Shown here one piece after another: positions 12,983 to 63,471 of a DNA stretch of 64,000 nt (positions within the stretch are counted from its first letter, which is position 1; every line of letters starts with the position of its first letter). The DNA comes from Anaerobaca lacustris (lineage in GTDB: Bacteria; Planctomycetota; Phycisphaerae; Sedimentisphaerales; Anaerobacaceae), in assembly GCF_030012215.1 (NCBI RefSeq), contig NZ_JASCXX010000014.1, positions 62,001 through 126,000 on the forward strand, in the 5' to 3' direction. The translations under genes and the position numbers were made by a program. The notes under the pieces are model-generated. The model ran no database searches, was not told where the DNA came from, and worked only from the letters and a program-made list of their open reading frames with translations.

Positions 12983-14503
12983 ATGAGCACACACGAACGG
13001 GAGCACACGCATGGTTGCTGTTCACGGATGGGGCGACGGGATTTCCTGGCGGGTCTGGGCAGCCTGGGCGGGGCAGCCCTGGCGATCAACCTGGGGCTGT
13101 TCAAGTGGAGCACCAGCAAGGTCCTTGGGGCGCCCGTGCTGCCGGGGCAGGAGGGTCCCAAGCCACTGATCCGTGTGGGTTTCTGCCAGGCGGGCCCAGG
13201 GGATCTGCTGGAGACCGGCTGGCCGGGCAAGGCATTCGACGCCGACGCCAGTCAGGCCACGTATACCAAGGCGCTCCAGGGGGGCGCGGATCGGCTGGGC
13301 GTTGACCTTCACGTCCAGAAGGCGCGTCTGAGGAACCATGAGACGGCCGACGCCTTTCTGGCCGAGGCCATCGCCCAGAAGGCGGACGGCATCATCCTGA
13401 TCAACATGGACGGTCACGTGTACGGCGTCCAGGCGGTGCACCGCATCCTGGATGGGCGCGGGGACCGTGCTTTGCCCATTCTCGTCTTCGTGCCGCATGG
13501 AACGCTCCACTCCAATCCGGGCGTGTACGAGCGGTTTCGCAAGGCGCCCTATTTCTTCGCCGCCGGCAGCGCGAACGTCGAATGGCTGGCCGACGGCCTG
13601 CGCCTGTTGAAGGCTCGCTGGCAGATGGCCCATACGCGCATGGCGGTGGTGACCGGTGAGGCGACCGGCGAAAAGACGCTCGATCCACTCGGCACGGTCC
13701 TTCAATACACGCCGATCCAACAATATGTGGACATCTACGAGGCCACGAAGAAGTCGGACGAGGTGATGGAGATCATGCGGCTGTATGGCTCGAACGCCAA
13801 GGGCATGGTGGAGCCTTCGAAGGACGATCTGTTCCAGGCCGCCCGCGCCTATGTGGCCAGCCGACAGCTTCTGAACGATACCCGTTGCCATGCGGTTACG
13901 ATGGATTGCTTCCCCCACGTGGCCAGACGCCGGCTTCCGTATATCTTTCCCCCGTGCCTGGCATTCATGCAGTTGCTCGACGAGGGCACGACGGGCGGCT
14001 GTGAGGCGGACATCTTTCCAGGCGTCACCGAGTTGCTGAGCAGTTATCTCCTGGGCCGGCCCGGCTTCCTGCACAATCCCATCTATGACACGGTGCGCAA
14101 CGTCTATGCCGGCGCCCACTGCAAGGCGCCCAGCCGCATGGCGGGCTTCGACGTTGACCCCGAGCCGTACATCATCCGAAGCCACCACGAGGCCGACTAC
14201 GGCGCGGTGCCCCAGGTGCTGTTCAAGGAGAACCAGCCGGCCACGCTATGGCGGTTCCTCTCGGCCGACACGCTGATGATCGCCACGGGCACGATCCTGC
14301 GCAATGTCGATTCGCATCCTGCCGACGGGATCGGCGGTTGCCGCTGCGCGTTCGAGATGGCCATGGACGATGTCAAAGACGTGCGCGACATCCGCGGGCA
14401 CCACAAGATCCTGACCTACGGCAAGCACCTGCACACCGTGCGGGCGTGGGCCCAGCTATCCGGCGTGACCGTAGAGCACATCACCGGAGGTGTGCTGGCG
14501 TAG
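12983..14503 (+). CDS. Tat-exported protein with L-fucose/L-arabinose isomerase fold (first copy)
   Basis: The 506-residue protein starts with a Cys/His-containing twin-arginine leader (HTHGCCSRMGRRDFLAG). The body has the layout of the FucI/AraA superfamily: Rossmann-like N-terminal domains (IRVGFCQAG, ADGIILINMDG), a central TMDCFPH...PPCLAF...DEGTTGGCEADIFP block near residues 307-345, and a C-terminal GHHKILTYGKHLH segment near residue 473. These correspond to the acidic and histidine metal-site regions of the family. The function here is unknown: an isomerase acting outside the cytoplasm would be unusual. AAAAGGAGA stands 9 bp before the chosen ATG, whereas the longer frame start at 12926 has no such site. 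A second member lies at 54727-56286. Confidence 0.75.
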   Translation: MSTHEREHTHGCCSRMGRRDFLAGLGSLGGAALAINLGLFKWSTSKVLGAPVLPGQEGPKPLIRVGFCQAGPGDLLETGWPGKAFDADASQATYTKALQGGADRLGVDLHVQKARLRNHETADAFLAEAIAQKADGIILINMDGHVYGVQAVHRILDGRGDRALPILVFVPHGTLHSNPGVYERFRKAPYFFAAGSANVEWLADGLRLLKARWQMAHTRMAVVTGEATGEKTLDPLGTVLQYTPIQQYVDIYEATKKSDEVMEIMRLYGSNAKGMVEPSKDDLFQAARAYVASRQLLNDTRCHAVTMDCFPHVARRRLPYIFPPCLAFMQLLDEGTTGGCEADIFPGVTELLSSYLLGRPGFLHNPIYDTVRNVYAGAHCKAPSRMAGFDVDPEPYIIRSHHEADYGAVPQVLFKENQPATLWRFLSADTLMIATGTILRNVDSHPADGIGGCRCAFEMAMDDVKDVRDIRGHHKILTYGKHLHTVRAWAQLSGVTVEHITGGVLA

Positions 14504-14553: not shown

Positions 14554-15789
14554 CTACGATCCGGAACGGACGTCGTAGACCAGCAGCGTATCGCCCCGGC
14601 GGACGTACAGCCGGCCGTTGGCGATCGTCGGGTGGGCCCAGTGTTCGTCCGTCCCGGCTGAGATGGTGAACTGGCTCACCGGTTTGTATCCGTCCGGGCT
14701 CGGCTGGACGAGAATCATCGTCCCGTCCTGCGTATAGACGTAGAGCATGCCGTCGGCGGCCACGACCACCCCCATCTTGGTTTCCGGAGCATTCCATCTC
14801 ACCTGGCCTGTCTTCCAGTCCAGGCAGACCAAGCCCCGGTTGCCGCTCTGGGCGGTGCCGTAGATGTGGCCGTCGAGCAGGACGGTGCCCTGCATCTGGC
14901 AGTCCAGCGTCTTGTCCGTCCACCTGGCGGCTACGCCGGCCTGGACCAGCGGCAGCATGGCGCCGCCCGTGCCCATCCCGGAGGCGACGTAGACCATGCC
15001 GTCAGCGTAGAGTGGTGGATTGGGCTGGACGGCCGCGCGGTGCGGATACTCATGCTGCCAGACGACCTCGCCCGAGCCGGCGTCGACGGCGACCACGCTG
15101 TTGGCCAGCATCGTCAGGACCAGCATCCGGCCGTCATGGCTGACCAGCCTTGCAGAGCAGTAGCCGGACGGCTCGCCGAGTCCCTTGGTCTGCCAGATCG
15201 TCTCGCCCGTGTCGCGGTCCAGGGCCACCAGCGACGCATCGGGGCCGCCGGGGGTGCAGATCACCCTGCGCCCATCGACCAGGACCGACTCGGCGAAGCC
15301 AAACCGCGCCGGCTCGGCCCCGAATCGCTCCAGCAGATCGATGATCTTGACCGCCCGGCCCTTGTTGGCGTCGAGGATGACCAATTGGGTGAAGCCCGTC
15401 ATGACGAAGACCCGGTCGCCATCCACCGTCGGCGTGCCGCGCGTTCCTGTCGGAGCGGGTCCCGTCCGGACGAATTCCGGGCCGTAGGCCACCTTCCACT
15501 TTCGGGCGCCATCCTCTCCGAGAGCATACAGGACACCCTGGTTCTGGTCGTCCATTCCGGTCACGTAGACCGTCCCATCGACAACGACCGCCGAAGAATA
15601 GCCCGGCCCCAGCCCATCGGCCGACCATGCCAGCTTCGGCCCGTCCTGAGGCCACTGCTTGGCCAGACCCGTCTCAGGAAACACCCCATCGCCCTGCGGC
15701 CCGCGAAAACGAGGGCAATCCCCTGCCTGAGCCGCCACGGCCAGAATCAAGGTCCCTGTGAGCATGCCAACAACCGTCGTCCTCTTCAT
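14554..15789 (-). CDS. Secreted PQQ-like beta-propeller repeat protein (1 of 3)
   Basis: The 411-residue protein has a signal peptide (TTVVGMLTGTLILAVAAQA). It then has the planctomycete-type start CPRFRGPQGDGVFPETGLAKQWP...PKLAWSADGLG, and about seven propeller blades with the PQQ-repeat pattern (GTVYVTG, GRRVICTPGGPDASLVALDRDTGETIW, GQVRWNAPETK). The family covers BamB-like scaffolds and quinoprotein dehydrogenases; no metal or PQQ ligands can be assigned, so a binding or scaffold role is safest. AGGAGG sits in front of the ATG at 15789. It shares the opening and the PGGPDA block with its two paralogues upstream. Confidence 0.85.
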   Translation of the reverse strand: MKRTTVVGMLTGTLILAVAAQAGDCPRFRGPQGDGVFPETGLAKQWPQDGPKLAWSADGLGPGYSSAVVVDGTVYVTGMDDQNQGVLYALGEDGARKWKVAYGPEFVRTGPAPTGTRGTPTVDGDRVFVMTGFTQLVILDANKGRAVKIIDLLERFGAEPARFGFAESVLVDGRRVICTPGGPDASLVALDRDTGETIWQTKGLGEPSGYCSARLVSHDGRMLVLTMLANSVVAVDAGSGEVVWQHEYPHRAAVQPNPPLYADGMVYVASGMGTGGAMLPLVQAGVAARWTDKTLDCQMQGTVLLDGHIYGTAQSGNRGLVCLDWKTGQVRWNAPETKMGVVVAADGMLYVYTQDGTMILVQPSPDGYKPVSQFTISAGTDEHWAHPTIANGRLYVRRGDTLLVYDVRSGS

Positions 15790-15814
15790 GAGTTGCCTCC
15801 TTTTTTTCCCAGCA

Positions 15815-15820
15815 AGTATA
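15815..15820 (-). promoter_or_regulatory. Extended -10 promoter candidate for PQQ-like gene 1
   Basis: On the minus strand the sequence reads TGGTATACT, an extended -10 (TGn plus TATACT), about 26 bp before the ATG at 15789. The -35 region is weak. It suggests that this gene can be transcribed separately from the upstream PQQ-like genes, from which it is separated by 199 bp. Confidence 0.35.
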
Positions 15821-15988
15821 CCACTCTTGCCGGCCCGCAAACATCCTCATGCCCATTCTCACGACACGCTCGAGAAAAGTGCCGACGCGGCGTTCCCGAA
15901 TACACCGACCGGGAATATGACCGCGCCGGCACCAACTGTGGAGGCAAACTCATGTTGGACGGAAGACTGGCAATTGACGGACGGAGTT

Positions 15989-17359
15989 TTACTTCGCCTT
16001 GACGTCGTAGCAGAACAAGACATCCTGATCGCGGATGTACAGTCTGCCGTTGGCAACGACCGGATGCGCCCAGGCCGGCAGGCGAGTGCGGTCGGGCTGT
16101 TGGAAGCGACCGCGCTCGGTGTACTGCTTCGGGTTCGGTTCGATCAGGCACACAGTGCCGTCCTCCATGCGATAGTAGAGCAGGCCGTCGGCCAGGGCCA
16201 GTGAGCCTTTCGCGCGACGGCCAACGCTGTCTCGCTGGTCCCACAGAACCTTGCCTGTCTTGAAGTCGAGACAGATGAGGGCGCCGCCCTCATTGCCGCC
16301 GCTGGCGCCGTAGAGGTAGCCGTCTAAAAGGACCATGCCACCGTGATGGTTCTGCATGTCGGTTGTGGCATAGACTTCCTCGGTCCTGACGGAGCCATCG
16401 GCATCCGTGATCAGCTTGACCAGCCCGCTGCCTCCGCCATAGGCGGAGGAGGCGAATACCATACCATCATGGTACAGCGGCGTCGCACAATTGATCCCCA
16501 CGCGGTTGGCGGGTCGGTCATATCGCCAGAGGAACTTGCCGTCGGATGCCGCGACTCCGATCAGTGCGTTGGCGGTCAGTTGCACGTACTGGCGCTGCCC
16601 GTCGAAGTCGATAGCGATCGGTGATGCGTAGGCCGCTCCACCACCACCGCCGAAACCGCCTGGACGACCGCCTCGACCTCCTCGACCACCGCCAAAGCCA
16701 CCTGGCGCTTCAGATTCACCGGCCGGGCTATCAGGTAACTTGCTCTTCCAGACAGTCTCGCCGGTCAATTTGTTCAGGGCCACCAGGATCGCATCCGGGC
16801 CGCCGGGGGTGACGATGACTTTGTCGCCATCAACCAGCGGCGACTCGCGGTAGCTCCACATGGGTACGCGCCCGCCAAATTCGTCTGTCAGGCTGCGCTG
16901 CCAAAGGACCTTGCCGTCCGCGACCTGCAGACAAGCGACATTGCCCCCCAATCCCTCGACATAGAGGCGTTCGCCATCGACCGTCGGCGTGCATCCCGGC
17001 CCTTCTCTTCCCTGGGATGCCCGCTGCTGAAAGGCCGGTCCAAGCGGCGTCACCCAGATTTCACTGCCGTCCTTTTCGGACAGGGCCCGGACCACTTCCT
17101 CATCGCCGCGATTGCTCATGATGAAGATCCGCCCGGCGGCAACGGCCGGGCTGGCATCGCCCCCGCCGAGATTGTCGATCTTCCAGGCAAGCGGGGGACC
17201 GTTCTCAGGCCATTGCTTGAGAAGGCCCGTGTCTGCGGACTTGCCGTCCCGGTTCGGCCCGCGCCATTGCGGCCAGTCGGCAGCCAGACCGGCCGTTGGG
17301 GCAAGAAACAGCGTGCAACTGCTGGTCCACAGAAACAATCGAGATGACCTACTCATCAT
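15989..17359 (-). CDS. Secreted PQQ-like beta-propeller repeat protein (2 of 3), with Gly/Arg-rich loop
   Basis: The 456-residue protein has a signal peptide ([20 protein letters not shown]) and the start [20 protein letters not shown] shared with its paralogues. Propeller blades follow. Between blades, around residues 225-250, there is a Gly/Arg-rich insertion ([12 protein letters not shown], then more Gly) that the two paralogues lack. That stretch is probably a flexible surface loop. GGAG precedes the tandem ATG pair at 17359/17356. The gene starts 39 bp after the stop of PQQ-like gene 3, so the two are probably co-transcribed. The role is presumed to be periplasmic binding or scaffolding. 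Confidence 0.85.
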
Positions 17360-17398
17360 CTTCTCCTACAGGGGATCGAGGTGCATGTACTATGAGAT

Positions 17399-18727
17399 TC
17401 ACTGAGCAACTCTGACACACTTCATCCGGCTCTGGTCTCGGATCAGGAGCTTGCCTTCGGAGAGGGCGATCGGGGCCCAGTTCTGGGTTCTGCCTCCCAC
17501 TCGTGCTGCGATCCCCTCACCGTCGGTTCCTGCTTCTCCAAGCAACTCTGCCGATGCCAGCGCCTTGAATCCGGACGGGTCAGGCTCGATCAGATACAAC
17601 GCCTTCGTGCCGTCGGTCGCCAGGATCAGGCCGTCGACCAGAATCATGCTGCCTTTGTTGAAGTCGGGCGAACGTCTCGTTTTCCACAGGATCTCGCCGT
17701 CCATGCTCATGCACACCAGGCCGTCGCGCCGGCGATTGGTTCCGTACTGAGCGTAGAAACAGCCATTGTGCAGGATCGGCGGCTTCGTTTGATCGCCAAA
17801 TTCTTCGGTCGTGAACAGTTCCGTTGTGCCGTAGCTGCCATCGGCCTGTTTCTCGACCTTGATCATCGTTGCACCGAGTTCATATCCACCCACAATGAGT
17901 ACTTTGTTGTCGCCGGCATCCACCGCACTCGGCACCGAGATGTGACAATTCCAGTTTGAATACTTCCAGAGGATCTTTCCCGTGAGCGGCTCGATTCCGA
18001 CCACGTTCCCCAAGGCATCCTCCAACTCCGGATGTCCGATACGATTGGTAGAGGAAGTGACCATCACAACATGGTCTTGCCCGTCTATTCGCACGACGGC
18101 CGGACTGACATATGTTTCGTTACCGAGATTGGGCGTCTTCCATACCACATCGCCCGTGCGTTTGTGGTAGGCCACTACACCCGCCTCCGGCGCTTGCGAT
18201 GCGATGATGAGAAGATCGCCATAGATCAAGGGGTTCTGTGTGATCGCCCAAATGGGAAGCCTGTCGCCGCCGAAGTCCTTCCACACGTTCTTGTGCCAGA
18301 CGGGCTTGTGGGTGTTGATGTCGATGCAATAGAGATCGCCGAAGCCGCCACACGAGTATACATGATCGTTATCCACGATCGGCACACTGCGCGAGCCGGG
18401 GAACATGACACGTCCGGGAGCGTCGTAGGCGAAACTCCAGAGTTCCTCGCCGCTGGAAAGGTCAAAACACCGAAGGTTGTCACCGACTTTGTCAACCCTG
18501 TCGAGCAGGTAGACCCTGCTGTCTTTGACCACAGGTCCGCCGTAGCCTATGCCAACAGGAACAGTCCAGAGGACCTGCGGCCCATTCTCAGGCCAGGAGC
18601 GCAAGAGTCCTTTTTCCGACGAAGTTGAGTTTCTGGCCGGTCCCAGATATTGCGGCCAGTCGGCCGCCAGACCGCTGCCGGCCGTGACCATCGCGACAGC
18701 CGCCGTTAACATGAGTGTCGCTTTCAT
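17399..18727 (-). CDS. Secreted PQQ-like beta-propeller repeat protein (3 of 3)
   Basis: The 442-residue protein has a signal peptide (LMLTAAVAMVTAGSGLAA), then DWPQYLGPARNSTSSEKGLL and successive PQQ-type blades (DSRVYLLDRVD, DLYCIDINTHKPVWHKNVW, GKILWKYSNWNC). It carries no heme or transmembrane segment. AAGGAG precedes the ATG. The gene follows the Ser/Thr kinase gene by 28 bp on the same strand, which ties this set of propellers to the sigma factor-kinase pair upstream. The kinase may report on cell-surface or substrate status sensed together with these proteins (inference). Confidence 0.85.
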   Translation of the reverse strand: MKATLMLTAAVAMVTAGSGLAADWPQYLGPARNSTSSEKGLLRSWPENGPQVLWTVPVGIGYGGPVVKDSRVYLLDRVDKVGDNLRCFDLSSGEELWSFAYDAPGRVMFPGSRSVPIVDNDHVYSCGGFGDLYCIDINTHKPVWHKNVWKDFGGDRLPIWAITQNPLIYGDLLIIASQAPEAGVVAYHKRTGDVVWKTPNLGNETYVSPAVVRIDGQDHVVMVTSSTNRIGHPELEDALGNVVGIEPLTGKILWKYSNWNCHISVPSAVDAGDNKVLIVGGYELGATMIKVEKQADGSYGTTELFTTEEFGDQTKPPILHNGCFYAQYGTNRRRDGLVCMSMDGEILWKTRRSPDFNKGSMILVDGLILATDGTKALYLIEPDPSGFKALASAELLGEAGTDGEGIAARVGGRTQNWAPIALSEGKLLIRDQSRMKCVRVAQ

Positions 18728-22804: not shown

Positions 22805-23941
22805 ATGACCGTCAGACGCTCATTTGCCCCGTTGCTCCTGATCGCAGCCATCCTTGCATCCAGCCTGCTGGCACGGGCCGACCAGCCAGCCATCACAAGC
22901 CTCTCCGAGACCCCGTTCGGCACCACACCGGATGGACAGGATGTCATGCTCTTCACGCTCACCAACGCGCACGGACTGCGGGCGAAGGTCATCACCTACG
23001 GGGCCATTCTCGTTTCGCTCGACGTACCCGACCGCCGTGGACAGTTGGCCGACGTCGTGCTCGGCTTCGACGACCTCGATTCATACATCAAGCGGAACCC
23101 GCTCTTCGGGGCCGTTGTTGGGCGCTATGCCAATCGCATCGCCGGCGCGCGGTTCATGCTGGACGGCGTTGAACACCGTATCACGGCCAACGCGGGCAAG
23201 AACCACATCCACGGCGGGGGCAACAGGCGATTCGACAAGGTCGTCTGGAAAGGCTCAAGCTACCGCGACGGCACGGAAATCGGCGTCCGCCTGACCCACC
23301 TCAGTCCCGATGGCGAGGAGGGCTTTCCAGGCAACCTGCAATGCACCGTCACGTATGCGCTGACCGACAAGAATGAACTCAGGATCGTGTACGCCGCCAC
23401 CACGGACAAGCCGACCATAGTCAACCTCACGAACCACAGTTATTTCAACCTCGCCGGCGCCGGCAGCGGAGACATCCTGGGCCATGAACTGATGATCGCC
23501 GCCCCGTGGTATACACCGGCCGGTGAAGGGTTGATTCCCACGGGCGAGATCCGCAGCGTCAAAGGTACGCCCCTGGATTTCACCGAGCCTCGTAAGATCG
23601 GCGAGCGAATCGACGAACTGACCGAGACGCGGGGATACGACCACAACTATGTGCTCAAAGGCTCGTACGGCTCGTCGATCCTGGCCGCCTGCGTTCGTGA
23701 GCCTCTCAGCGGGCGGGTCATGGAGGTCTATACCACCGAGCCGGGCGTGCAGCTCTACACCGCCAACGGCATGAACAACGTCAAGGGCAAGGGCGGCAAG
23801 ATCTACGGTTCGCACCACAGCTTCTGCCTGGAGACGCAGCATTTCCCCGATTCACCCAACAAGTCGCACTTCCCATCCACTGTGCTTCGGCCGGGCCAGG
23901 AGTACAGAACCACGACGACCTTCAGATTCAGTGCCGAATGA
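22805..23941 (+). CDS. galM: Secreted aldose 1-epimerase (galactose mutarotase)
   Basis: The 378-residue protein has a signal peptide (FAPLLLIAAILASSLLARA) and the full GalM signature: GAVVGRYANRIAGARF, NHIHGG, TIVNLTNHSYFNLAG with the catalytic His, GVQLYTANGM, and SFCLETQHFPDSPN with the catalytic Glu. It interconverts alpha and beta anomers of aldoses such as galactose and glucose. Export suggests it works on sugars released outside the cytoplasm by the secreted glycosidases of the region. Length matches the family. It is a single-gene unit divergent from the sigma factor gene. Confidence 0.93.
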   Translation: MTVRRSFAPLLLIAAILASSLLARADQPAITSLSETPFGTTPDGQDVMLFTLTNAHGLRAKVITYGAILVSLDVPDRRGQLADVVLGFDDLDSYIKRNPLFGAVVGRYANRIAGARFMLDGVEHRITANAGKNHIHGGGNRRFDKVVWKGSSYRDGTEIGVRLTHLSPDGEEGFPGNLQCTVTYALTDKNELRIVYAATTDKPTIVNLTNHSYFNLAGAGSGDILGHELMIAAPWYTPAGEGLIPTGEIRSVKGTPLDFTEPRKIGERIDELTETRGYDHNYVLKGSYGSSILAACVREPLSGRVMEVYTTEPGVQLYTANGMNNVKGKGGKIYGSHHSFCLETQHFPDSPNKSHFPSTVLRPGQEYRTTTTFRFSAE

Positions 23942-54726: not shown

Positions 54727-56286
54727 TCACGCCTCTTCGAGCACCTTGTAGCCCATTGCGTCGGCCAGCGCGAAGATCGGTTCTTTCAGATCGCCGTAGC
54801 AGGTGACCCGGTGCCAGCTCCATTGGTCCCACTGTGTGAACAACTTCTCGATGTCCCCGACCGGCTCGACGGCCAGTTTGGTCCGGCACGCCCGGTCGTC
54901 TGGATCGTTCTGAACCGCTTTGCCCTGATGGAAGAGGATCTCCTGGCGCGACTGCTCCATCTCGACGGTCGTGGTCATATATCCGAGCGGCAGAACCGAT
55001 CGCAGCGACGCCCCCTGGCGGTCCTCCGAGTGGGTCATGATCGCGAACGGGTTCGTCGCACCCTCGGGCCCGAAGACCCTGTTCGAGGCGACGCAGTGGG
55101 CGTAAATGATCTGGCGCTTGGCCGTGTCGATGACCGGGTCGGAGATGTATCCCGGTCGGCCCTGCGTCAACGCCGTCAGCATGACCATTGTTGCGGTCGA
55201 ACGGACATCGCATTCGCAGGCCCCGATCAGTCCTTCATTGCACAACTCATGGAAGCCCAGGCACGGGTAGGCGTGGATGTGTCCGCCGTAGAAGCCGCCC
55301 AGGCAGTTGATCGTGATCGCGTTGGCCCTGTGCCTCCTCAGCACCGACTTCATGCCCAGGTACATCGCCGCCGAGGTCTCCAGGGTCTCACGCGACACGT
55401 CGATCACCTCCGTGGCGCTGCGCTGCCAGCGATCGGCCACAGCGCGGGATTCATCCTTGTCGGCGGTCTTCCAGGCTTCGTTGACTTCTGCGAACGAGAC
55501 GCGCTCCATTGGGATGCCGGAGACGGGCTCGGCCGGTCCGGATTCCTGGTCGCGCACGGCCAGGATTTTCGAGGTCTTCATCGCCGCGATGCACTCGGCC
55601 GACGAAAGTGTCTTGACGGCATCCGGGTTGCAGGACAGATCGCCCGCCTTGGGTGTCGTGGACGTCCGCGCGCGTGCCGTGGCGGCAACGAACTCGGCAG
55701 GCGAGCCGCCCTTGCCGACGACGCCGAAGCACTTGACGGCCTCGACCAGATCTTCCATCCGCGACGACGATACGAACCCAACGTTCGGGGTACCACTTCG
55801 CAGGAACGCCGCCGTGTAGACCAGAAAGCCGCCGCTGCCGCCGTACTGGAAATCAACGTACAGGGTCGGCTTGCCTGATGTCGCGAGGGTCTGCACGACG
55901 CGGTTCCAGCAATTCAATTGGCAAACGACATACCCGTCGATTGTGCCCTTGTCTTCGTCGAGAATCTTCTGGGCCTGCTCCGGACCGGTTGCCATTGAGG
56001 CGACGAACCGCAGGTCGGGGCACTGCTTTGTCAGTGTCGTTGTGGTCCGCTCCATCACCGGTCGGAAATCGAAGCCGACGTTCGGCCAGTCCGGGCCCGG
56101 CTGCACCGGAGCGTGCAGCGCATAGACGATGCGAATCCGCATCGTGCGGCCCTGAGCGGCGCGTGTCGCGCGAGGGGCCGTCAAGACCCCGGCCGCACCG
56201 AGACAGGCACCGCAACCGGCGGCCAGGAACCGGCGACGGCTCAATCCACAGCATGCACATCCCACTGGAAGTCTCTGCGTACCCAT
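54727..56286 (-). CDS. Tat-exported protein with L-fucose/L-arabinose isomerase fold (second copy)
   Basis: The 519-residue protein has a twin-arginine leader with Cys residues (CACCGLSRRRFLAAGCGACLG). The fold pattern matches the copy at 12983-14503: N-terminal Rossmann-like domains; AITINCLGGFYGGHIHAYPCLGFHELCNEGLIGACECDVRS around residues 320-360, containing the acidic metal-site block; and C-terminal SWHRVTCYGDLKEPIFALADAMG, where the His corresponds to the FucI/AraA metal-site histidine. The substrate and even isomerase activity are unproven. GGGAGGATCG sits just upstream of the ATG at 56286, although the frame runs to 56358. It converges with the response regulator gene. Confidence 0.77.
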   Translation of the reverse strand: MGTQRLPVGCACCGLSRRRFLAAGCGACLGAAGVLTAPRATRAAQGRTMRIRIVYALHAPVQPGPDWPNVGFDFRPVMERTTTTLTKQCPDLRFVASMATGPEQAQKILDEDKGTIDGYVVCQLNCWNRVVQTLATSGKPTLYVDFQYGGSGGFLVYTAAFLRSGTPNVGFVSSSRMEDLVEAVKCFGVVGKGGSPAEFVAATARARTSTTPKAGDLSCNPDAVKTLSSAECIAAMKTSKILAVRDQESGPAEPVSGIPMERVSFAEVNEAWKTADKDESRAVADRWQRSATEVIDVSRETLETSAAMYLGMKSVLRRHRANAITINCLGGFYGGHIHAYPCLGFHELCNEGLIGACECDVRSTATMVMLTALTQGRPGYISDPVIDTAKRQIIYAHCVASNRVFGPEGATNPFAIMTHSEDRQGASLRSVLPLGYMTTTVEMEQSRQEILFHQGKAVQNDPDDRACRTKLAVEPVGDIEKLFTQWDQWSWHRVTCYGDLKEPIFALADAMGYKVLEEA

Positions 56287-56539: not shown

Positions 56540-57481
56540 ATGACAACAGGGCATACCGAGAAGCGGCCGCACGTGGTGTTCTGTAGCTGCGCCTACTACG
56601 AGACCATCCCGCAAGCCGTGAAGGAGCGCGTCTTTACATCTTTGCGCGACGCGGGTATCGCCGTGGAAGCCGTAGCCGATCTGTGCGGCATGGCCGCTGG
56701 TCGGCATCCGAGACTGCGGCACTGGGCCCGGGCCGAGCCCCTGGTCGTCGTGGCCTGTTTTCCACGGGCGGTCCGGTGGCTGTTCGAGGCTGCGGGCACC
56801 CCGCTGAACCCCGAACGGACGCGGCTGTTCAACATGCGAACCCAATCCCCCGAGGAGATTGCGCGGGAATTGATGAAGGATGATGGATCATGGATGATTG
56901 AAGAGAAGTCCGCCCCTTCGGCCCCCAATCATCAATCATCAATCGAAAACCATCAATCGGATTGGGTGCCGTGGTTCCCTGTGATCGACTACGACCGATG
57001 CGCCAACTGCAAGCAGTGCATGAACTTCTGCCTGTTTGGCGTATATGGACTGTCCGATGGAGGACGCGTGGAGGTGCAAAACCCGGCCGGCTGCAAGACG
57101 AACTGCCCGGCCTGCGCGCGGATGTGTCCGAGAAGTGCGATCATCTTCCCCAAGTATGCCGATTCCCCTATCAACGGTGATGATGCCCCGCCGCCGGCCG
57201 AGGTGCCACAGGAATCGGCCCCGGACCTGCGCAGCCTACTGCGAGGGGATGTTTACGACAGGATTCGCCGGCGCGCTCCGGGGCAGAAGCGATTTTCGAC
57301 CGATGCGCCGGACAGCGTACCGGCCGGGCCGTGTCCCACGATCGATGCGCTGCGGCGCGACCTTGATATCCCCGACGACGTCCTGGCCTCGTTGTCCGGC
57401 GCGGAATTGCAGCGCCTCCGCTCTCAGGCGCGCACCCCGGAGGCCGGAGACGGCGACAAGAAAGAGAGCCGCAATGCCTGA
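56540..57481 (+). CDS. Dicluster 4Fe-4S ferredoxin-domain protein, first gene of the isoprenoid cluster
   Basis: The 313-residue protein has an N-terminal domain with VVFCSCAYYETIP, DLCGMAAG and LVVVACFPRAVRWLFEAAG, recalling Cys-containing segments of HdrA-type electron-transfer proteins. A ferredoxin domain follows with two clusters: Cys154-x2-Cys157-x2-Cys160-x3-Cys164, and Cys185-x3-Cys189-x2-Cys192-x3-Cys196-Pro. It probably delivers electrons to the radical SAM enzyme encoded next. Between the two domains lies a low-complexity linker (about residues 112-142) encoded by AT-rich repeats. The ATG at 56540 follows AAGGTGGGG. It overlaps the next gene by 8 bp. Confidence 0.82.
   Translation: MTTGHTEKRPHVVFCSCAYYETIPQAVKERVFTSLRDAGIAVEAVADLCGMAAGRHPRLRHWARAEPLVVVACFPRAVRWLFEAAGTPLNPERTRLFNMRTQSPEEIARELMKDDGSWMIEEKSAPSAPNHQSSIENHQSDWVPWFPVIDYDRCANCKQCMNFCLFGVYGLSDGGRVEVQNPAGCKTNCPACARMCPRSAIIFPKYADSPINGDDAPPPAEVPQESAPDLRSLLRGDVYDRIRRRAPGQKRFSTDAPDSVPAGPCPTIDALRRDLDIPDDVLASLSGAELQRLRSQARTPEAGDGDKKESRNA
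56893..56965. repeat. AT-rich repeat insertion in the Fe-S protein gene
   Basis: A stem-loop is formed by GATGATTG (56893-56900) and CAATCATC (56926-56933). CAATCATC is repeated directly at 56933-56940 and a related CATCAATC follows at 56951-56958. Base composition is clearly lower in GC than the flanking gene. It encodes a Ser/Asn/His/Gln-rich linker. Confidence 0.5.
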
Positions 57482-59045
57482 ATCCCGACTCAGACCGGCG
57501 GTCGTCCTCGTCGCCGACCGGTCACTCAGCGCCGATTATCGCATCCTCTTCGACGGCATGTTCGCCACGATGCAGATGACCCAGGTGCCCGAGATCTTCA
57601 TGCGTCGCTTCCTCGCCCCTGCCGTGCCGACAGACGCCGACGGGCGCGCCCGAACGGTCCCCTTGGGACTGCGGCGGGTCGAATCGGCGCTGCTCAAGTA
57701 CACGACTCTGGAACCGGACGATGTGGTCTGCACGACGCCGGAGCGACTGGGCGATGTGATCGGTCCGTGGGTGAAGGTCGTGGGTTTCAGCTCCAGCGAT
57801 CCGCTCGGGATGGGCATGAGCAATACGACGACCGCCAACTTCTGGAAGGGCGAACTCTACACCCGGCGATGGACACGTCAGACCCTCGAACAACTGACGG
57901 CGCTGAAGCGCCGGCACGGTTTCAAGATCGTCGTCGGCGGCGCAGGAGCCTGGCAGTGGATCGTCCATGCGGACAAGCGACCCGACGTCGATATCGACGT
58001 GGTCTTCCAGGGCTATTTCGAGGCCTCGGGGCCCGAGCTGTTCACCGAACTGCTGAACGGCCGCCTGCCTGGGCATCACGTGGTCGAAGCGGACATCGGC
58101 GCCGATCGCATCCAGCCGATTTGCGGTCCATCGCTGCTCGGGATTGTTGAGCTGTCACGCGGCTGCGGCAGGGGGTGCAAGTTCTGCGCGATGGCGCGCC
58201 ACGGAATGAAGCACCTCGATCCCGACACGATTCTGGCCGACCTGCAAACCAACGTGGCCGGGGGCCTCAAGGCGGTGGTCAGCGGCAGCGAGGACTTCTT
58301 CCGCTATGGCGCGAAGGGGCTGCGTCCCGATTTTGAAAAGCTGTGCGGTCTGCTGGAACGGATGCGGCAGATCAAGGGGCTGTCGTTCATGCAGATCGAC
58401 CACGCCAACGTGACATCGGTTCTGCAACTGACCGACGAGCAGCTTCGCGAGATTCGGCGTCTCTTGACCTGGGAGCGGCCGAGCGAGTATCTATGGGTGA
58501 ATATGGGCGTCGAAAGCGCCAACGGGCATTTGGTGGCCGCCAACAGCCCGGGCAAGGTCGCGCCCTTCGATCCGGACGATTGGGGCCGGATGGTTCGCGA
58601 GACGGCGGACCGCACGACGCGTTGCGGGTTCTTTCCCGTCGTCAGTGTCCTGCTGGGCATGCCGGGCGAGACCCCGGACGACGTCACGGCGACCCTGGAA
58701 CTGGTTCGGGACCTGGCGGCAAAGAACGCCGTGATCTTTCCCATTTTCTACGAGCCGATGGCCACAGGGGCGGAGGCCGACAAACAGCGATTCACGCTGG
58801 CGAAGATGACGCTCGAACACCTGGAGCTCTATCGGACCTGCTACGAGCAGAATTTCAAGATGGTCCCGAAGTTGTTCTGGGACAATCAGCGTGCTGGCGG
58901 CGTCTCGTGGGCCCGACGTGCGTTCATGCAGACCCTCGGACACGGCGAAGTGATGACCTGGCGACGGACCTTCAGGAGATTGCGAAGACAGATGGATCGT
59001 TCCATTTCGACAGTGGTGGAGAAGGAGCAGGTGTATGCCTCATGA
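57474..59045 (+). CDS. Radical SAM enzyme with B12-domain-like N-terminus
   Basis: The 523-residue protein has an N-terminal Rossmann-like domain (VVLVADRSLSADYR; VKVVGFSSSDPLGMG; FKIVVGGAGAWQW), laid out like the cobalamin-binding domain of class B radical SAM enzymes but without a visible DxHxxG cobalt-ligand motif. The radical SAM core starts with SRGCGRGCKFCAM: Cys231-x3-Cys235-x2-Cys238 bind the 4Fe-4S cluster. Other core segments are LWVNMGVESANG and VSVLLGMPGETPDDVTATLEL. The reaction is not known. Position between an Fe-S protein and a polyprenyl synthase suggests modification of an isoprenoid (inference). The start at 57474 was chosen from the overlap context. Confidence 0.85.
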   Translation: MPESRLRPAVVLVADRSLSADYRILFDGMFATMQMTQVPEIFMRRFLAPAVPTDADGRARTVPLGLRRVESALLKYTTLEPDDVVCTTPERLGDVIGPWVKVVGFSSSDPLGMGMSNTTTANFWKGELYTRRWTRQTLEQLTALKRRHGFKIVVGGAGAWQWIVHADKRPDVDIDVVFQGYFEASGPELFTELLNGRLPGHHVVEADIGADRIQPICGPSLLGIVELSRGCGRGCKFCAMARHGMKHLDPDTILADLQTNVAGGLKAVVSGSEDFFRYGAKGLRPDFEKLCGLLERMRQIKGLSFMQIDHANVTSVLQLTDEQLREIRRLLTWERPSEYLWVNMGVESANGHLVAANSPGKVAPFDPDDWGRMVRETADRTTRCGFFPVVSVLLGMPGETPDDVTATLELVRDLAAKNAVIFPIFYEPMATGAEADKQRFTLAKMTLEHLELYRTCYEQNFKMVPKLFWDNQRAGGVSWARRAFMQTLGHGEVMTWRRTFRRLRRQMDRSISTVVEKEQVYAS

Positions 59046-60720
59046 CCGTGTGACAACGGCCAGACCCGTCAGGCAGCCTCAGGACAACGTTCCACAGACG
59101 AAACAGCAGCGAGACGATTTGCTCGCGGTCATCCGTCAGTACGTCGAGGCGCATGGGCCGGTCCCGCCTCTGTCGATTGGTGAGCTGCGGGCCCACACGG
59201 AGGCCGTGCTCGAACAAGCCGGCATGGATCGCAAGTACACCGACTATGCGGCCGTTCTTGTCAACAACGAGGTCTGGCGCGAGACGGTGGCGGCTATTCC
59301 TTACGAGAAACGTCTGCTGCTTCTGCCCAAGTGCCTTCGCAGCAGCACGGAATGCCCGGCGAGCTTCGACGATCTGGGGTTGCTTTGCGAGCATTGCGGC
59401 CGATGCGCCATCGACGAGTTGAAGAGCCAGGCGGAGCAGTTGGGTTATGCCGTTCTGGTTGCCGAGGGTTCGCCCGTTGTGATGGGCCTGATCGAGACGG
59501 GACGTATCGAAGCGGTCGTGGGTGCCAGTTGCCTGTCGGTGCTGGAGCGGGTTTTTCCGTACATGGAGGCCGGAGCGGTCCCCGGCGTGGCGATTCCCCT
59601 CCTGCGAGACGGCTGCGCCGACACCAGTGTGGACCTCGATTGGGTCTGGGAAGCAATCTACCAGACGACGGACGATCAAACCAGGCGTCTCGACCTCGAT
59701 GCGCTGCACGAGCAAGTCAACGCGTGGTTTTCCCAGGAAGCTCTCGCGCAGATGATCGCGCCGCAGCCCGACGAGACCGAGCAAGTGGCCCTGGATTGGA
59801 TGGCCAAGGCGGGCAAACGCTGGCGGCCTTTCCTCGGTGTCTGCGCGTACAAGGCCCTCTCGACCGACGGCTCGCCTGCTACAGACAAGGACCTGCAACG
59901 GATCGCCGTTGCCGTGGAGTGTTTCCATAAGGCGTCGCTGGTTCATGACGATATCGAAGATGGTGACTCGGAGCGGTACGGTGAGAAGACGCTCCATTCG
60001 GAGCACGGCGTTCCCGTCGCATTGAATATTGGCGACCTGCTTCTGGGCGATGGCTATCGGCTTCTCGTCGAGACCGATGCCTCCGATGAGCGCAAGGCGA
60101 AACTCCTGAATGCCGCCGTGCAGGGCCATCGCACGCTGTGCCTGGGCCAGGGCCGCGAGCTGGCGTGGGCCCGAGCGCCGAGGCCGCTGACGGTGGACCA
60201 GGTGCTGGAGATCTTTCGCATGAAGACGGCGCCGGCGTTCGAGGTGGCTCTTCGCCTCGGGGCGGTCCTCGCCGGCTGCGACGATCGGGTCGGCAGTGTG
60301 CTGAAGCAGTACAGCGAGTCCCTGGGCATCGCGTATCAGATTCGCGACGATCTGGACGACCTTCGCAGCCCCGATGGGATCGACCTGTGCGCGAGCCGGC
60401 GGCCGTCCGTCCTGCTGGCCCTGGCCTATGAGATGGGTGATGAGGCAAAAAGGACGCGAATCGAGCGGCAGTGGGCCCCGTCCGCGACGGATGCCGACCG
60501 CCAGCAGGTGCGGCAGATCGTCTCGGCGCAGGAGGTGGAGCTGGCGGCGATGCGATTGATGGAGAGCTACAAAGCGCAGGCCATCGGCTCGCTGATCGCC
60601 CTGAAGAACGCCAACCTCAAGGGCCTGCTGCGCCGCGTGATGGGCAAGATATTCAACGACTTCGAGATCATGGGCTGCTGCAATGACCATCCGCCTCGAC
60701 ATGCGCCGCGCCGTGACTAA
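59035..60720 (+). CDS. DUF116-polyprenyl diphosphate synthase fusion
   Basis: The 561-residue protein joins two domains. Residues about 20-225 match DUF116: LLLLPKCLRSSTECP...LLCEHCGRCAI (six Cys in about 30 residues), then GYAVLVAEGSPVVMGLIETGRIEAVVGASCLSVLE. Residues about 245-555 form an all-alpha trans-prenyltransferase: GKRWRPFLGVCAY, HDDIEDGD (first Asp-rich motif, Asp305-Asp309), GDLLLGDGYRL, FRMKTAPAFEVALRLGA and YQIRDDLDDL (second motif, from Asp438). Both Mg-binding motifs are intact, so it should condense IPP with an allylic diphosphate. The Cys set of DUF116 may bind an Fe-S cluster or zinc. It overlaps the radical SAM gene by 11 bp. Confidence 0.87.
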   Translation: MPHDRVTTARPVRQPQDNVPQTKQQRDDLLAVIRQYVEAHGPVPPLSIGELRAHTEAVLEQAGMDRKYTDYAAVLVNNEVWRETVAAIPYEKRLLLLPKCLRSSTECPASFDDLGLLCEHCGRCAIDELKSQAEQLGYAVLVAEGSPVVMGLIETGRIEAVVGASCLSVLERVFPYMEAGAVPGVAIPLLRDGCADTSVDLDWVWEAIYQTTDDQTRRLDLDALHEQVNAWFSQEALAQMIAPQPDETEQVALDWMAKAGKRWRPFLGVCAYKALSTDGSPATDKDLQRIAVAVECFHKASLVHDDIEDGDSERYGEKTLHSEHGVPVALNIGDLLLGDGYRLLVETDASDERKAKLLNAAVQGHRTLCLGQGRELAWARAPRPLTVDQVLEIFRMKTAPAFEVALRLGAVLAGCDDRVGSVLKQYSESLGIAYQIRDDLDDLRSPDGIDLCASRRPSVLLALAYEMGDEAKRTRIERQWAPSATDADRQQVRQIVSAQEVELAAMRLMESYKAQAIGSLIALKNANLKGLLRRVMGKIFNDFEIMGCCNDHPPRHAPRRD

Positions 60721-61588
60721 GGCCGCCGAGGCCCTGGGCGATTCCGTCGAGGCGGTCAGAGAGTTTCTCGGTCGCCATCTCAATGAGGACGGGGGCTTTC
60801 GGGGTCGAGATGGAAAGAGCGATCTGTACTACACCGTCTTCGGACTGGAGGCGTCGCTGGCTCTGAAAGCGCACATCCCATACGAGCGCGTTGCAGGGTA
60901 CCTTCATCGCTTCGACGCGGGCCAGTCCCTGGACCTGGTGCACCTTGCCTCTCTGGTCCGATGCCGGGTCAACCTCACGGATATCGCGCGCGACGCATTC
61001 GATTCGGGTACACGACGGGCCCTGATTGCCCGCCTGATGGAGTTTCGGGCGCGCGATGGAGGTTTCAGCGTATCAGGCGGGGCCGAACGTGGGCATGTGT
61101 ACGGCAGCTTCCTGGCCTTGGGCGTCTGTCAGGACCTTCTGGTGGATGATCTGGACCCGGCCGGCGTGCTCGGCTCGGTTGGTTCACTCCAGATGCCCGA
61201 CGGCGGCTATTCGAACGAGCCGACAATGACCGTCAGCGCTACAGCCGCTACCGCGGCGGCGGTTTTGATTCTTCACTATCTTGAAGCGCCGCTGCCTATG
61301 TCCGCGGTGCAATGGCTGGCCGCGCGCGCCGAGCCGTACGGCGGGTTCTCCGCCATCCCATCGGGACCCGATCTGGCGATTCCCGATCTGCTCTCGACGG
61401 CGACCGCATTGCACGCTTTGACGTTGGCCGGAGTGGATCTGGACGAGATTCGAGAGAGGAACCTGGACTATCTCGACGGACTATGGGATGTGCAGGGCGG
61501 TTTCCACGGCCATCCGGCCGACGATGTGCTGGACTGCGAATACACCTACTACGGGCTGCTGTCGCTCGGCGACCTTGTCGGACCATGA
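60683..61588 (+). CDS. Single-barrel prenyltransferase-beta/terpene-cyclase-like protein
   Basis: The 301-residue protein consists of repeated QW/prenyltransferase-type units with Gly-Gly-aromatic turns (EDGGFRG, DGGFSVSGGAERGHVYGSFLALG, DGGYSNEP, YGGFSAIP, QGGFHGHP). It therefore forms one alpha/alpha barrel like the beta subunit of protein prenyltransferases. The zinc Asp-x-Cys of those enzymes reads Leu-Asp-Cys here, and no clear zinc histidine follows, so protein prenylation is unlikely. It has no DxDD motif, so it is not a class II cyclase by itself. It overlaps the synthase gene by 38 bp and the following cyclase gene by 4 bp, suggesting a partner of that cyclase (inference). Confidence 0.72.
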   Translation: MTIRLDMRRAVTKAAEALGDSVEAVREFLGRHLNEDGGFRGRDGKSDLYYTVFGLEASLALKAHIPYERVAGYLHRFDAGQSLDLVHLASLVRCRVNLTDIARDAFDSGTRRALIARLMEFRARDGGFSVSGGAERGHVYGSFLALGVCQDLLVDDLDPAGVLGSVGSLQMPDGGYSNEPTMTVSATAATAAAVLILHYLEAPLPMSAVQWLAARAEPYGGFSAIPSGPDLAIPDLLSTATALHALTLAGVDLDEIRERNLDYLDGLWDVQGGFHGHPADDVLDCEYTYYGLLSLGDLVGP

Positions 61589-63471
61589 TGCGAGTCGATC
61601 AAGAGGCACTGAACCAGACGGTTATGGCGCTCCGCGAGCGGCTTCTGGGATTGAGGAACGCTGAGGGCCATTGGGTTGGCCACCTTTCCAGCAGCGCCCT
61701 CTCGACCGCAACCGCCGTCTTCGCCCTGGCCCAGGTCGATGCAGCGAGGCATCGAACGCTGATCGACCGGGGCCTGAACTGGCTCTGCGAGAACCAGAAC
61801 GACGATGGCGGATGGGGCGACACCATCCAGAGTCCGAGCAATCTCAGCACGACACTGCTATGCTATTCAGCGTTGGCCGTTGCAGAGGGTGGCAACCTCA
61901 AGTCCGAAGGACTTGGGGATGGTTTGCCCGAACGGGCCATCCCCAAGCGGCGCCTGAGGTTGCCGGGCGCCCTTGAGAAGACAGAGGTGTGGCTTCGTCG
62001 CGAAGTCGGCTCGTTCGAACCGGAAGCCTTAGCCGGGGCGGTGATCGGGCGATATGGCAAGGACCGCACGTTCTCGGTTCCGATTCTGACGATGTGCGCG
62101 CTGGCGGGGCGGCTGGGCGCCGGATCACAGGTGTGGCGCCGCGTCAAGCCGCTGCCCTTTGAGCTGGCGGTCCTGCCGCACCGGCTGTACAAGTGGTTGC
62201 GGCTGCCCGTGGTCAGCTACGCATTGCCCGCTCTGATTGCCATTGGGCAGGCCCGCTATGCCCATCGCAGGCCCCGTTGTCCGGTGTCGTGGCTCGTTCG
62301 CCATCTGGCGAGAAGGCGAAGCCTCGATGTGCTGACGACGCTCCAGCCGACCAACGGTGGCTTCCTTGAAGCGGCTCCGTTGACCTCGTTCGTCGTGATG
62401 AGCCTGGCCTCCTGCGGGCAGGCCGACCACCCAGTCGTCTCCAAAGGGGTCGAGTTCCTTCTCGCCTCAATCCGCGACGACGGCAGTTGGCCGATCGACA
62501 CGAACCTTGCGATCTGGGGCACGACGCTCTCGATCGCCGCTCTGGCCGCATGGGCTGAAGCCCATCCTACATTGCCGGCAACCGAGCGCCGACGGCTGAT
62601 CGATTGGCTGTTGGCCTGCCAGCACACGCGTGTGCATCCCTACACGCAGGCGGCGCCCGGAGGCTGGGCGTGGACGAATCTGCCCGGGGCGGTCCCCGAT
62701 GCCGACGACACCGCCGGTGCACTGCTCGCATTGCACCACCTCGGCGTCCGGAACGAAGTGGTCTCGAAAGCTGTCACGGCGGGAATCGGATGGCTGCTCG
62801 ATCTTCAGAACCGCGACGGGGGGATACCGACGTTCTGCCGCGGTTGGACGAAGTTGCCCTTTGACCGAAGCGCGCCGGACATCACCGCTCATGCGCTCGG
62901 TGCGATGGGAGCCTGGCTGAACGAACTGCCGGCCAGCCTGAGGCAGCGAACGGACGCCGGGATGGTCCGAGCGATGGACTATCTCAAGGCGGCCCAGCAT
63001 GAGGACGGTTCGTGGGCGCCGCTGTGGTTCGGCAATCAATCGGCGCCGAACAAGGAGAATCCCGTTTACGGCACGAGCCGGGTGCTGACTCACCTGTCGC
63101 GCGTTCCGGCCGCTCGCAGAGAGCGAGTGGCTAGTGAGTGCGAGCGGGCCCTGCACTGGCTCATGGGGGCGCAGAACGCCGATGGAGGCTGGGGTGGTGC
63201 GGCCTCCGTCGCGTCGTCTATTGAGGAGACCGCATTGGCTGTCGATGCACTGGCCGAGTGTCTACACCGGAGAGCGATACCGGGGCCTGCGACGGTCCAC
63301 GCGACGCATCGCGGCGCCGACTGGCTCATCTGCCATACCGAGCGGGGCACATCGGTTCCGGCCTCACCGATCGGGTTGTACTTCGCGCAGCTCTGGTATT
63401 ACGAGGAACTCTATCCTCTGGTCTTCGCCCTGTCGGCGCTTGGCAAGGTCCAGCGACTGCCAGGTGCCTGA
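61585..63471 (+). CDS. Class II terpene cyclase of the squalene-hopene cyclase family
   Basis: The 628-residue protein equals bacterial squalene-hopene cyclases in length. The protonating DxDD motif is present (PDADDTAGALLAL, residues 372-375), close to the position of the same motif in the Alicyclobacillus enzyme. QW-type repeats are seen throughout (DDGGWGD, DDGSWPID, GGWAW, EDGSWAP, ADGGWGG). A hydrophobic stretch near residues 205-225 fits the membrane-inserting part. The substrate may be squalene or another linear isoprenoid made by the neighbouring synthase. Two palindromic elements are translated within it: 82 bp at residues about 102-128 and 23 bp at about 322-329. The start at 61585 is fixed by the ATGA overlap. 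Confidence 0.85.
   Translation: MMRVDQEALNQTVMALRERLLGLRNAEGHWVGHLSSSALSTATAVFALAQVDAARHRTLIDRGLNWLCENQNDDGGWGDTIQSPSNLSTTLLCYSALAVAEGGNLKSEGLGDGLPERAIPKRRLRLPGALEKTEVWLRREVGSFEPEALAGAVIGRYGKDRTFSVPILTMCALAGRLGAGSQVWRRVKPLPFELAVLPHRLYKWLRLPVVSYALPALIAIGQARYAHRRPRCPVSWLVRHLARRRSLDVLTTLQPTNGGFLEAAPLTSFVVMSLASCGQADHPVVSKGVEFLLASIRDDGSWPIDTNLAIWGTTLSIAALAAWAEAHPTLPATERRRLIDWLLACQHTRVHPYTQAAPGGWAWTNLPGAVPDADDTAGALLALHHLGVRNEVVSKAVTAGIGWLLDLQNRDGGIPTFCRGWTKLPFDRSAPDITAHALGAMGAWLNELPASLRQRTDAGMVRAMDYLKAAQHEDGSWAPLWFGNQSAPNKENPVYGTSRVLTHLSRVPAARRERVASECERALHWLMGAQNADGGWGGAASVASSIEETALAVDALAECLHRRAIPGPATVHATHRGADWLICHTERGTSVPASPIGLYFAQLWYYEELYPLVFALSALGKVQRLPGA
61887..61968 (+). repeat. 82-bp palindromic element, copy 2 (inside the cyclase gene)
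   Basis: The element reads GGGTGGCAACCTCAAGTCCG at its start and CCATCCCCAAG in its inner right arm. It matches the reverse complement of 49018-49099 at 66 of 82 positions with no gap. It is translated as GGNLKSEGLGDGLPERAIP and following basic residues, between two helices of the first cyclase domain. Confidence 0.85.
62548..62570 (-). repeat. 23-bp palindromic repeat, copy 2 (inside the cyclase gene)
   Basis: On the minus strand the sequence is GTAGGATGGGCTTC followed by AGCCCATGC. It differs from 12886-12908 by one base in the loop. It is translated on the plus strand as AWAEAHPT. Confidence 0.75.

Follow-up and report, generated by a model that had tools for sequence, protein, structure and literature searches.

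Sugar isomerases of the AraA and FucI type are textbook cytoplasmic enzymes, and two genes in a 64,000-nucleotide stretch of the Anaerobaca lacustris genome (the window) raise the question of what proteins of this kind might do behind a twin-arginine leader. The first gene (12983–14503, plus strand) encodes a product of 506 aa, P0001, and the second (54727–56286, minus strand; the plus-strand frame there contains stops) a product of 519 aa, P0003. An earlier reading, made from the sequence alone, had assigned Cys-containing twin-arginine leaders to both products, and such leaders are present in both. That of P0001, with the N-terminus MSTHEREHTHGCCSRMGRRDFLAGL, covers approximately residues 1–50 (12983–13132, plus strand) and consists of a CC pair, then the RR (residues 18–19; 13034–13039), then a hydrophobic stretch. 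That of P0003, with the N-terminus MGTQRLPVGCACCGLSRRRFLAAGC, covers approximately residues 1–45 (56152–56286, minus strand) and has CACC ahead of the RR (residues 17–18; 56233–56238) and CGAC behind it. The P0001 start is supported by the AAGGAG located nine bases 5′ of its ATG; an alternative ATG at residue 16 would lose both leader cysteines. A GGGAGG is located six bases 5′ of the P0003 ATG. The two proteins share 26% identity across 260 columns (E 1e-20) and are paralogues, so the shared motifs are not just a pair of chance matches; the alignment columns also reveal an insertion in P0003-type sequences that is absent from P0001.

Both products were modeled with AlphaFold2, P0003 with a pLDDT of 87 and a pTM of 0.85, and P0001 with a pLDDT of 74 and a pTM of 0.77 from an alignment of 21 rows, most of which are loci of the P0003 subfamily (the best 80 of 341 relatives of P0003 found by contig search) at 21–25% identity to P0001. 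The best Foldseek matches are L-arabinose isomerases in each case (E 1.7e-19 for P0001 and 3.5e-18 for P0003), and AraA, D-arabinose isomerase and FucI, enzymes with a three-domain fold, outrank all other structures by far. In the VIA comparison P0001 reaches Z 26.3 over 410 residues (4.4 Å; best row outside the superfamily, Z 12.6) and P0003 reaches Z 28.4 over 283 residues (best row outside the superfamily, Z 10.5). The top VIA matches of P0003 span only residues 223–519, at 2.6 Å, and the Foldseek matches span the chain at an rmsd of 24 Å; in this model the N-terminal domain seems to be placed otherwise than in AraA.

Sequence profiles lead to the same superfamily. A profile of 26 exported-type rows finds a PDB L-arabinose isomerase at 3.2e-10, and it also matches designed TIM barrels from 1.8e-05, so that the top of its list is meaningful and its weak matches are untrustworthy. 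When leaderless relatives are added, E. coli AraA is reached at 2.2e-14 over almost the full profile length and FucI at 1.8e-11, and a profile from the leaderless rows alone reaches AraA at just 0.0013. No Pfam or NCBIfam enzyme family attains its cut-off for P0001 or P0003. The sulfoquinovose isomerase (SftI) model NF048012 matches 52 of the 53 rows of the family alignment at E ≤ 0.001; it gives 52.2 bits with P0003 and 11.7 with P0001, and membership of either in SftI is ruled out by scores so far under the curated 700 bits. Pfam AraA_central matches two of the 26 exported-type rows at E ≤ 0.001, and Fucose_iso_C (PF02952), at E ≤ 0.01, matches none of the eight family places in the A. lacustris genome and two places elsewhere in it. 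Among the Peripla_BP models none exceeds its cut-off, Peripla_BP_4 giving 11.4 of 35.1 bits with P0001 and none being listed for P0003. The best explanation is that P0001 and P0003 belong to a Tat-exported-type clade within the superfamily of L-arabinose and L-fucose isomerases; the kinship and fold that had been proposed for both are borne out by Foldseek, VIA, the profile searches and the tree described below. A chance resemblance to isomerases is ruled out by the homology of the two proteins (E 1e-20) and by the fold matches.

The pair belongs to a larger set. Both proteins of the sequence-only reading are real, and its count of two falls short of the genome total of eight family matches, seven of them intact. 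One copy, L003 (G000:C3:106847–107716), is truncated; it is nearly identical to the last ~290 residues of L002 (G000:C21) and is located behind unrelated sequence, a recent partial duplication or conversion scar. In a sample of 294 genomes of the phylum, 14 have a match (A. lacustris included), and none of the 20 listed genomes of the same order and class has one; the distribution is therefore patchy. The titles of the best 80 of the 341 relatives name Planctomycetota, Verrucomicrobia, Kiritimatiellae, Lentisphaerae, Hydrogenedentota, Omnitrophota, Aminicenantes and Acidobacteria, together with a single Bacteroides MAG and a single Desulfomonile MAG, MAG labels being sometimes wrong. Twenty genomes picked for holding at least one match have between 1 and 18 each, some of them fragments or masked, and one named chromosome has 18. 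The family is apparently large, widespread and undescribed; no account of exported FucI/AraA-type proteins was recognized from titles and abstract openings among the literature matches listed, in a search whose scope lies outside most subscription journals.

The residues of the metal site can be placed by alignment. We take the ligands of FucI to be E337, D361 and H528 and those of AraA to be E306, E333, H350 and H450, and presume their acid/base roles in the same way. In the profile alignment FucI E337 and D361 are joined by an ungapped stretch and fall on the Glu of a CExD block and on the Asp of an 'ISDP' segment, and H528 falls on a C-terminal His; the ligand-bearing pieces of this alignment score 3.7 and 0.0 bits by themselves. 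Against AraA the Glu and two His agree, and the Asp falls on D334, adjoining the ligand E333, not on E333 itself. In P0003 (minus strand) the block is CECD (C357-E358-C-D360; 55207–55218), with E358 at the place of FucI E337 and AraA E306, followed by Asp383 at that of FucI Asp361 (55138–55140), H397-C398 with H397 at that of AraA H350 (55093–55098), and His492 at that of FucI His528 and AraA His450 (54811–54813). In P0001 (plus strand) it is CEAD (C340-E341-A-D343; 14000–14011), with E341 corresponding to the same Glu, followed by Asn365 at the FucI Asp361 ligand place (14075–14077), H379-C380 with H379 at the AraA H350 place (14117–14122), and H474 at the FucI H528 and AraA H450 place (14402–14404). 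The central C-E-x-D block and C-terminal histidine proposed for both proteins are thus found in both. The metal site is complete in P0003 (E358, D383, H492), but P0001 keeps two of the three FucI ligands (E341 and H474) and has lost one carboxylate. Since P0001 is without this ligand, one shared function is unsupported, and a single function should not be assumed for the two proteins. The reading had named the joint loss of all metal ligands and of any match to the isomerase fold as the finding that would count against it; ligands are retained and the fold is matched.

The leader, too, can be followed through the family. The RR is present at the aligned place in all 51 exported-type rows of the tree and in 76 of the 80 P0003-subfamily loci, that is, in every one with a readable leader, as the four without one begin within 46 bases of a contig end. 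It is also present in 30 of the 31 copies of chromosomes CP070678.1 and CP070675.1, the remaining copy being masked there. TatC is encoded in the A. lacustris genome. Both proteins fall short of the cut-offs of the Tat-signal models; TIGR01409 gives 14.9 bits for P0001 and 11.5 for P0003 against a cut-off of 16.7 and matches three of the 53 rows of the family alignment at E ≤ 0.001. In the tree, which was built first with the leader columns and repeated without them, one branch separates exported-type from leaderless rows with an SH-aLRT of 99 when the leader columns are removed. This is a quick tree with SH-aLRT support only and with some long branches flagged, and it does not give the direction of change because it has no AraA/FucI outgroup. 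Its 17 relatives filed as cytosolic have no leader from the chosen start codons; two of these, L151 and L164, show RR letters at that column from frame upstream of the chosen starts. The tree omits L001, L003, L009, L026, L028, L034, L037, L046 and L060 of 48 exported-type entries as fragments or duplicates (L001 and L009 being the two proteins of the window, entered from its sequence), and L153, L155, L159 and L172 of 21 other entries.

From what was computed, namely the homology, the fold, the conservation of ligands, an RR in every readable copy examined, TatC and one supported branch, we infer the following for export, metal, catalysis and substrate. A protein of this family would fold in the cytoplasm, where a divalent metal (probably Mn2+) would be bound with the Glu, Asp and His as ligands; the folded protein would be moved across the cytoplasmic membrane by the Tat system; and in its mature form, in some copies perhaps lipid-anchored, it would be located in the periplasm and interconvert an aldose and a ketose there through a cis-enediol mechanism. 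P0003 would represent the conserved and complete form. The second carboxylate would have been lost in P0001 and the remaining Asn-type paralogues, which would probably perform an altered chemistry on another sugar, or binding only. We favor this reading, in which the Asp-type proteins are periplasmic metal-dependent aldose-ketose isomerases and the Asn-type proteins have changed chemistry or binding, with moderate confidence. The suggestion that Tat export fits a protein that loads its metal beforehand is a reasonable one by analogy, as MncA is described in an excerpt of PMC4192464 as a Tat substrate that folds with manganese in the cytoplasm.

Does the genomic context indicate which reaction would be involved? 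The P0001 gene is downstream of a gene for a beta-helix protein on the same strand, and a hydrolase of the rhamnosidase type, an aldose 1-epimerase and a GFO/IDH/MocA protein whose leader is Tat-like are encoded within approximately 12 kb of it. The epimerase (22805–23941, plus strand; Pfam E 6e-95) has a start that is signal-peptide-like by eye and looks like another usually cytoplasmic sugar enzyme that is apparently exported. The P0003 gene is flanked by a gene for a response regulator (by eye) and a divergent gene, and elsewhere in the genome the copy L007 is near GH127 and GH16 genes. An all-against-all ORF comparison across the 80 named loci, a set with many short ones, revealed no conserved partner; the largest neighbor clusters, named by eye, are Tat-like GFO/IDH/MocA proteins (7 of 80 loci) and sulfatase-like proteins (5 of 80). 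Two further groups of genes in the window may be mentioned. Three successive beta-propeller-like proteins with signal-peptide-like starts are encoded at 14554–18727 (minus strand), the first matching PQQ_2 and the other two assigned by eye, and a row at 57036–63471 (plus strand) of radical-SAM-like, prenyl-synthase-like and two cyclase-like proteins (by eye) suggests a cluster for terpenoids or hopanoids.

The best-surviving alternative is that the metal site is capable of enediol chemistry and is used outside the cytoplasm, not for plain isomerization, but for epimerization or for rearranging keto-sugars released by exported GFO/IDH/MocA enzymes. The genome has 88 GFO/IDH/MocA and 32 3-keto-disaccharide-hydrolase matches, a script assigns Tat-like leaders to 16 of the top 30 GFO matches (two, L206 and L212, being doubtful), and its gene content suggests a heavy extracytoplasmic sugar-oxidation outfit. 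Moreover, the copy L004 is near a Tat-like GFO/IDH/MocA gene, L005 is beside a 3-keto-disaccharide hydrolase gene, and the many diverged paralogues per genome suggest several substrates. However, the association with such genes is weak where it was measured by position on CP070678.1 and CP070675.1, using 31 of 32 family matches, 150 of 165 GFO matches and 57 of 69 3-keto-hydrolase rows (the other 12 being further domains of the same genes). A GFO gene is within 4 kb for 5 of the 31 family members (shift mean 2.66, with 241 of 2000 shifts as high) and within 8 kb for 10 of 31 (shift mean 5.08, with 64 of 2000 as high), and a 3-keto-disaccharide hydrolase gene is within 4 kb for none of the 31 and within 8 kb for three (mean 2.25). 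In these two chromosomes clustering is therefore weak with GFO genes and null with 3-keto hydrolases. The P0003 metal triad, furthermore, is that of FucI. Another reaction of this type thus seems unlikely to us, though it keeps some weight. With no conserved partner and with position tests that are weak or null, the context speaks of a carbohydrate-degrading bacterium and of no particular pathway.

A second alternative is that these are non-catalytic extracytoplasmic proteins that bind sugars or metals, which is likelier for Asn-types such as P0001, and it is the variation of the metal site that bears on it. At the position of P0003 D383, the 51 exported-type tree rows have D in 37, N in 13 (P0001 included) and E in one; the switches between D and N require at least six changes on the tree, and N is present in six of the seven intact copies of the A. 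lacustris genome (P0001, L002, L004, L005, L007 and L008). Structural matches to periplasmic binding proteins (Z about 10–11.5) are obtained with the N-terminal domain, and Peripla_BP_6 matches one of the 26 rows at 0.00067. Against this, the rest of the site is retained. The Glu position is E in 49 of the 51 rows, Q in one and D in one, and among the 13 Asn-type rows it is Glu in 11, the exceptions being L040 (Q) and L027 (D; its C-terminal end is cut off); H397 is present in all 51 rows and H492 in 50 with one gap, and these histidines and the cysteines are invariant in Asn-type rows. No conserved transporter neighbor was recognized by eye among the 40 neighbor clusters listed. Finally, E358, D360, D383, H397 and H492, and with them the full triad, are conserved in all 80 P0003-subfamily loci, a pattern of sequence conservation that favors an enzyme over a binding protein for that subfamily. 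A binding role for the family is in our judgment improbable. In 6 of the 13 N rows (P0001, L005, L007, L008, L025 and L041) the Asn has a His immediately before it, giving HN in place of SD, and none of the 37 D rows has a His there; it is a guess that this His might replace the Asp ligand in a possible ligand swap.

The cysteines are a further peculiarity of the family. C328, C342, C357 and C398 are invariant in exported-type rows, and of the 17 leaderless relatives 16 have C357 and all have the other three; C467 is present in 50 of the 51 exported-type rows, with a gap in the remaining one, versus 2 of 17 leaderless rows. Four of these five cysteines also occur in the leaderless relatives and so are not explained by export alone; a disulfide or Fe-S role may be considered. 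The cysteines of the leader are a separate matter. First, at least two precede the RR in 55 of 58 P0003-subfamily leaders versus 1 of 26 other Tat-like ORFs at the same loci, and at least two follow it in 45 of 58 versus 3 of 26; these controls were chosen by regular expression and some are unlike real Tat leaders. Second, within the A. lacustris genome at least two precede the RR in six of the seven intact copies (L007 has none) versus none of the 16 Tat-like GFO/IDH/MocA leaders. Third, a close Cys pair precedes the RR in 63 of 71 non-redundant leaders, a CxxC follows it in 42 and both features occur in 34; in some of the rows with RRR the anchor is shifted by one residue. In the family beyond the P0003 subfamily the cluster is frequent without being general, several rows having none. 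The controls (1 of 26 and 0 of 16) rule out a Cys-rich leader as general composition, and the leader Cys cluster is a mark of the family, not of genome composition.

A more far-reaching proposal is that Planctomycetes, Verrucomicrobia and their allies isomerize sugars outside the membrane with a paralogous exported family whose leader Cys cluster (Cys pair, RRxFL, CxxC) serves as a sensor of metal or redox state and restricts exit to enzyme that is folded and loaded with metal; in this complete form we consider it very unlikely. On CP070678.1 and CP070675.1 the leaders of L261, L262, L272 and L276 have lipobox-like ends (LLAGC, LLQGC, LTTGC and LAGGC); these four are likely to be Tat lipoproteins within the family, and such ends would point to a location outside the membrane. 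That the protein instead stays in the cytoplasm and keeps its Cys-rich N-terminus as a regulatory or cofactor-binding segment, as the unusual Cys clusters might suggest, is extremely unlikely given the hydrophobic Ala/Gly/Leu-rich stretch that follows the RR in readable copies, the four lipobox-like ends, and the presence of a leaderless relative, L160, in the same genome.

If periplasmic isomerization by the Asp-type proteins is the correct reading, some bacteria would reshape sugars before uptake; records of the Tat-leader clade extend from Planctomycetota to Acidobacteria. Asp-type and Asn-type proteins would also offer a natural series for the role of the second carboxylate, and the Cys-rich Tat leader would be a candidate for metal- or redox-dependent export. 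The surprise for a specialist is moderate to high, as a cytoplasmic textbook fold is found as an exported-type paralogous family with a Cys-rich leader.

Among known systems, AraA (E. coli 2ajt and 4f2d, Geobacillus 4r1o) has the same whole-chain fold, and its E306, H350 and H450 correspond to P0003 E358, H397 and H492, but the identity of the structural matches is 11–15%, and to our knowledge AraA enzymes are made without a leader. FucI (1fui) and D-arabinose isomerase (3a9r) also share the fold, and FucI E337, D361 and H528 correspond to P0003 E358, D383 and H492. FucI differs in that PF02952 misses all eight family places, in that P0001 has Asn for D361, and in that we know of no exported FucI. 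Fucose isomerases are mentioned in PMC6365825, PMC8857213 and PMC7356697, excerpts of which do not speak of export. SftI provides the best curated sequence match of P0003, yet one far under 700 bits, and according to an excerpt of PMC11659671 it works after sulfoquinovose (SQ) import. GFOR and AAOR, sugar enzymes of the GFO/IDH/MocA family, bear Tat signals (PMC4628093, in excerpt) and in this resemble P0001 and P0003, but their fold and chemistry differ. A further comparison is with the leaderless SftI/FucI-like relatives of the same phylum, such as L160, which share four of the cysteines, the CExD block, the Asp, the HC pair and the C-terminal His with the exported-type proteins, but differ from them in the lack of a leader and, in all but two of 17, of C467.
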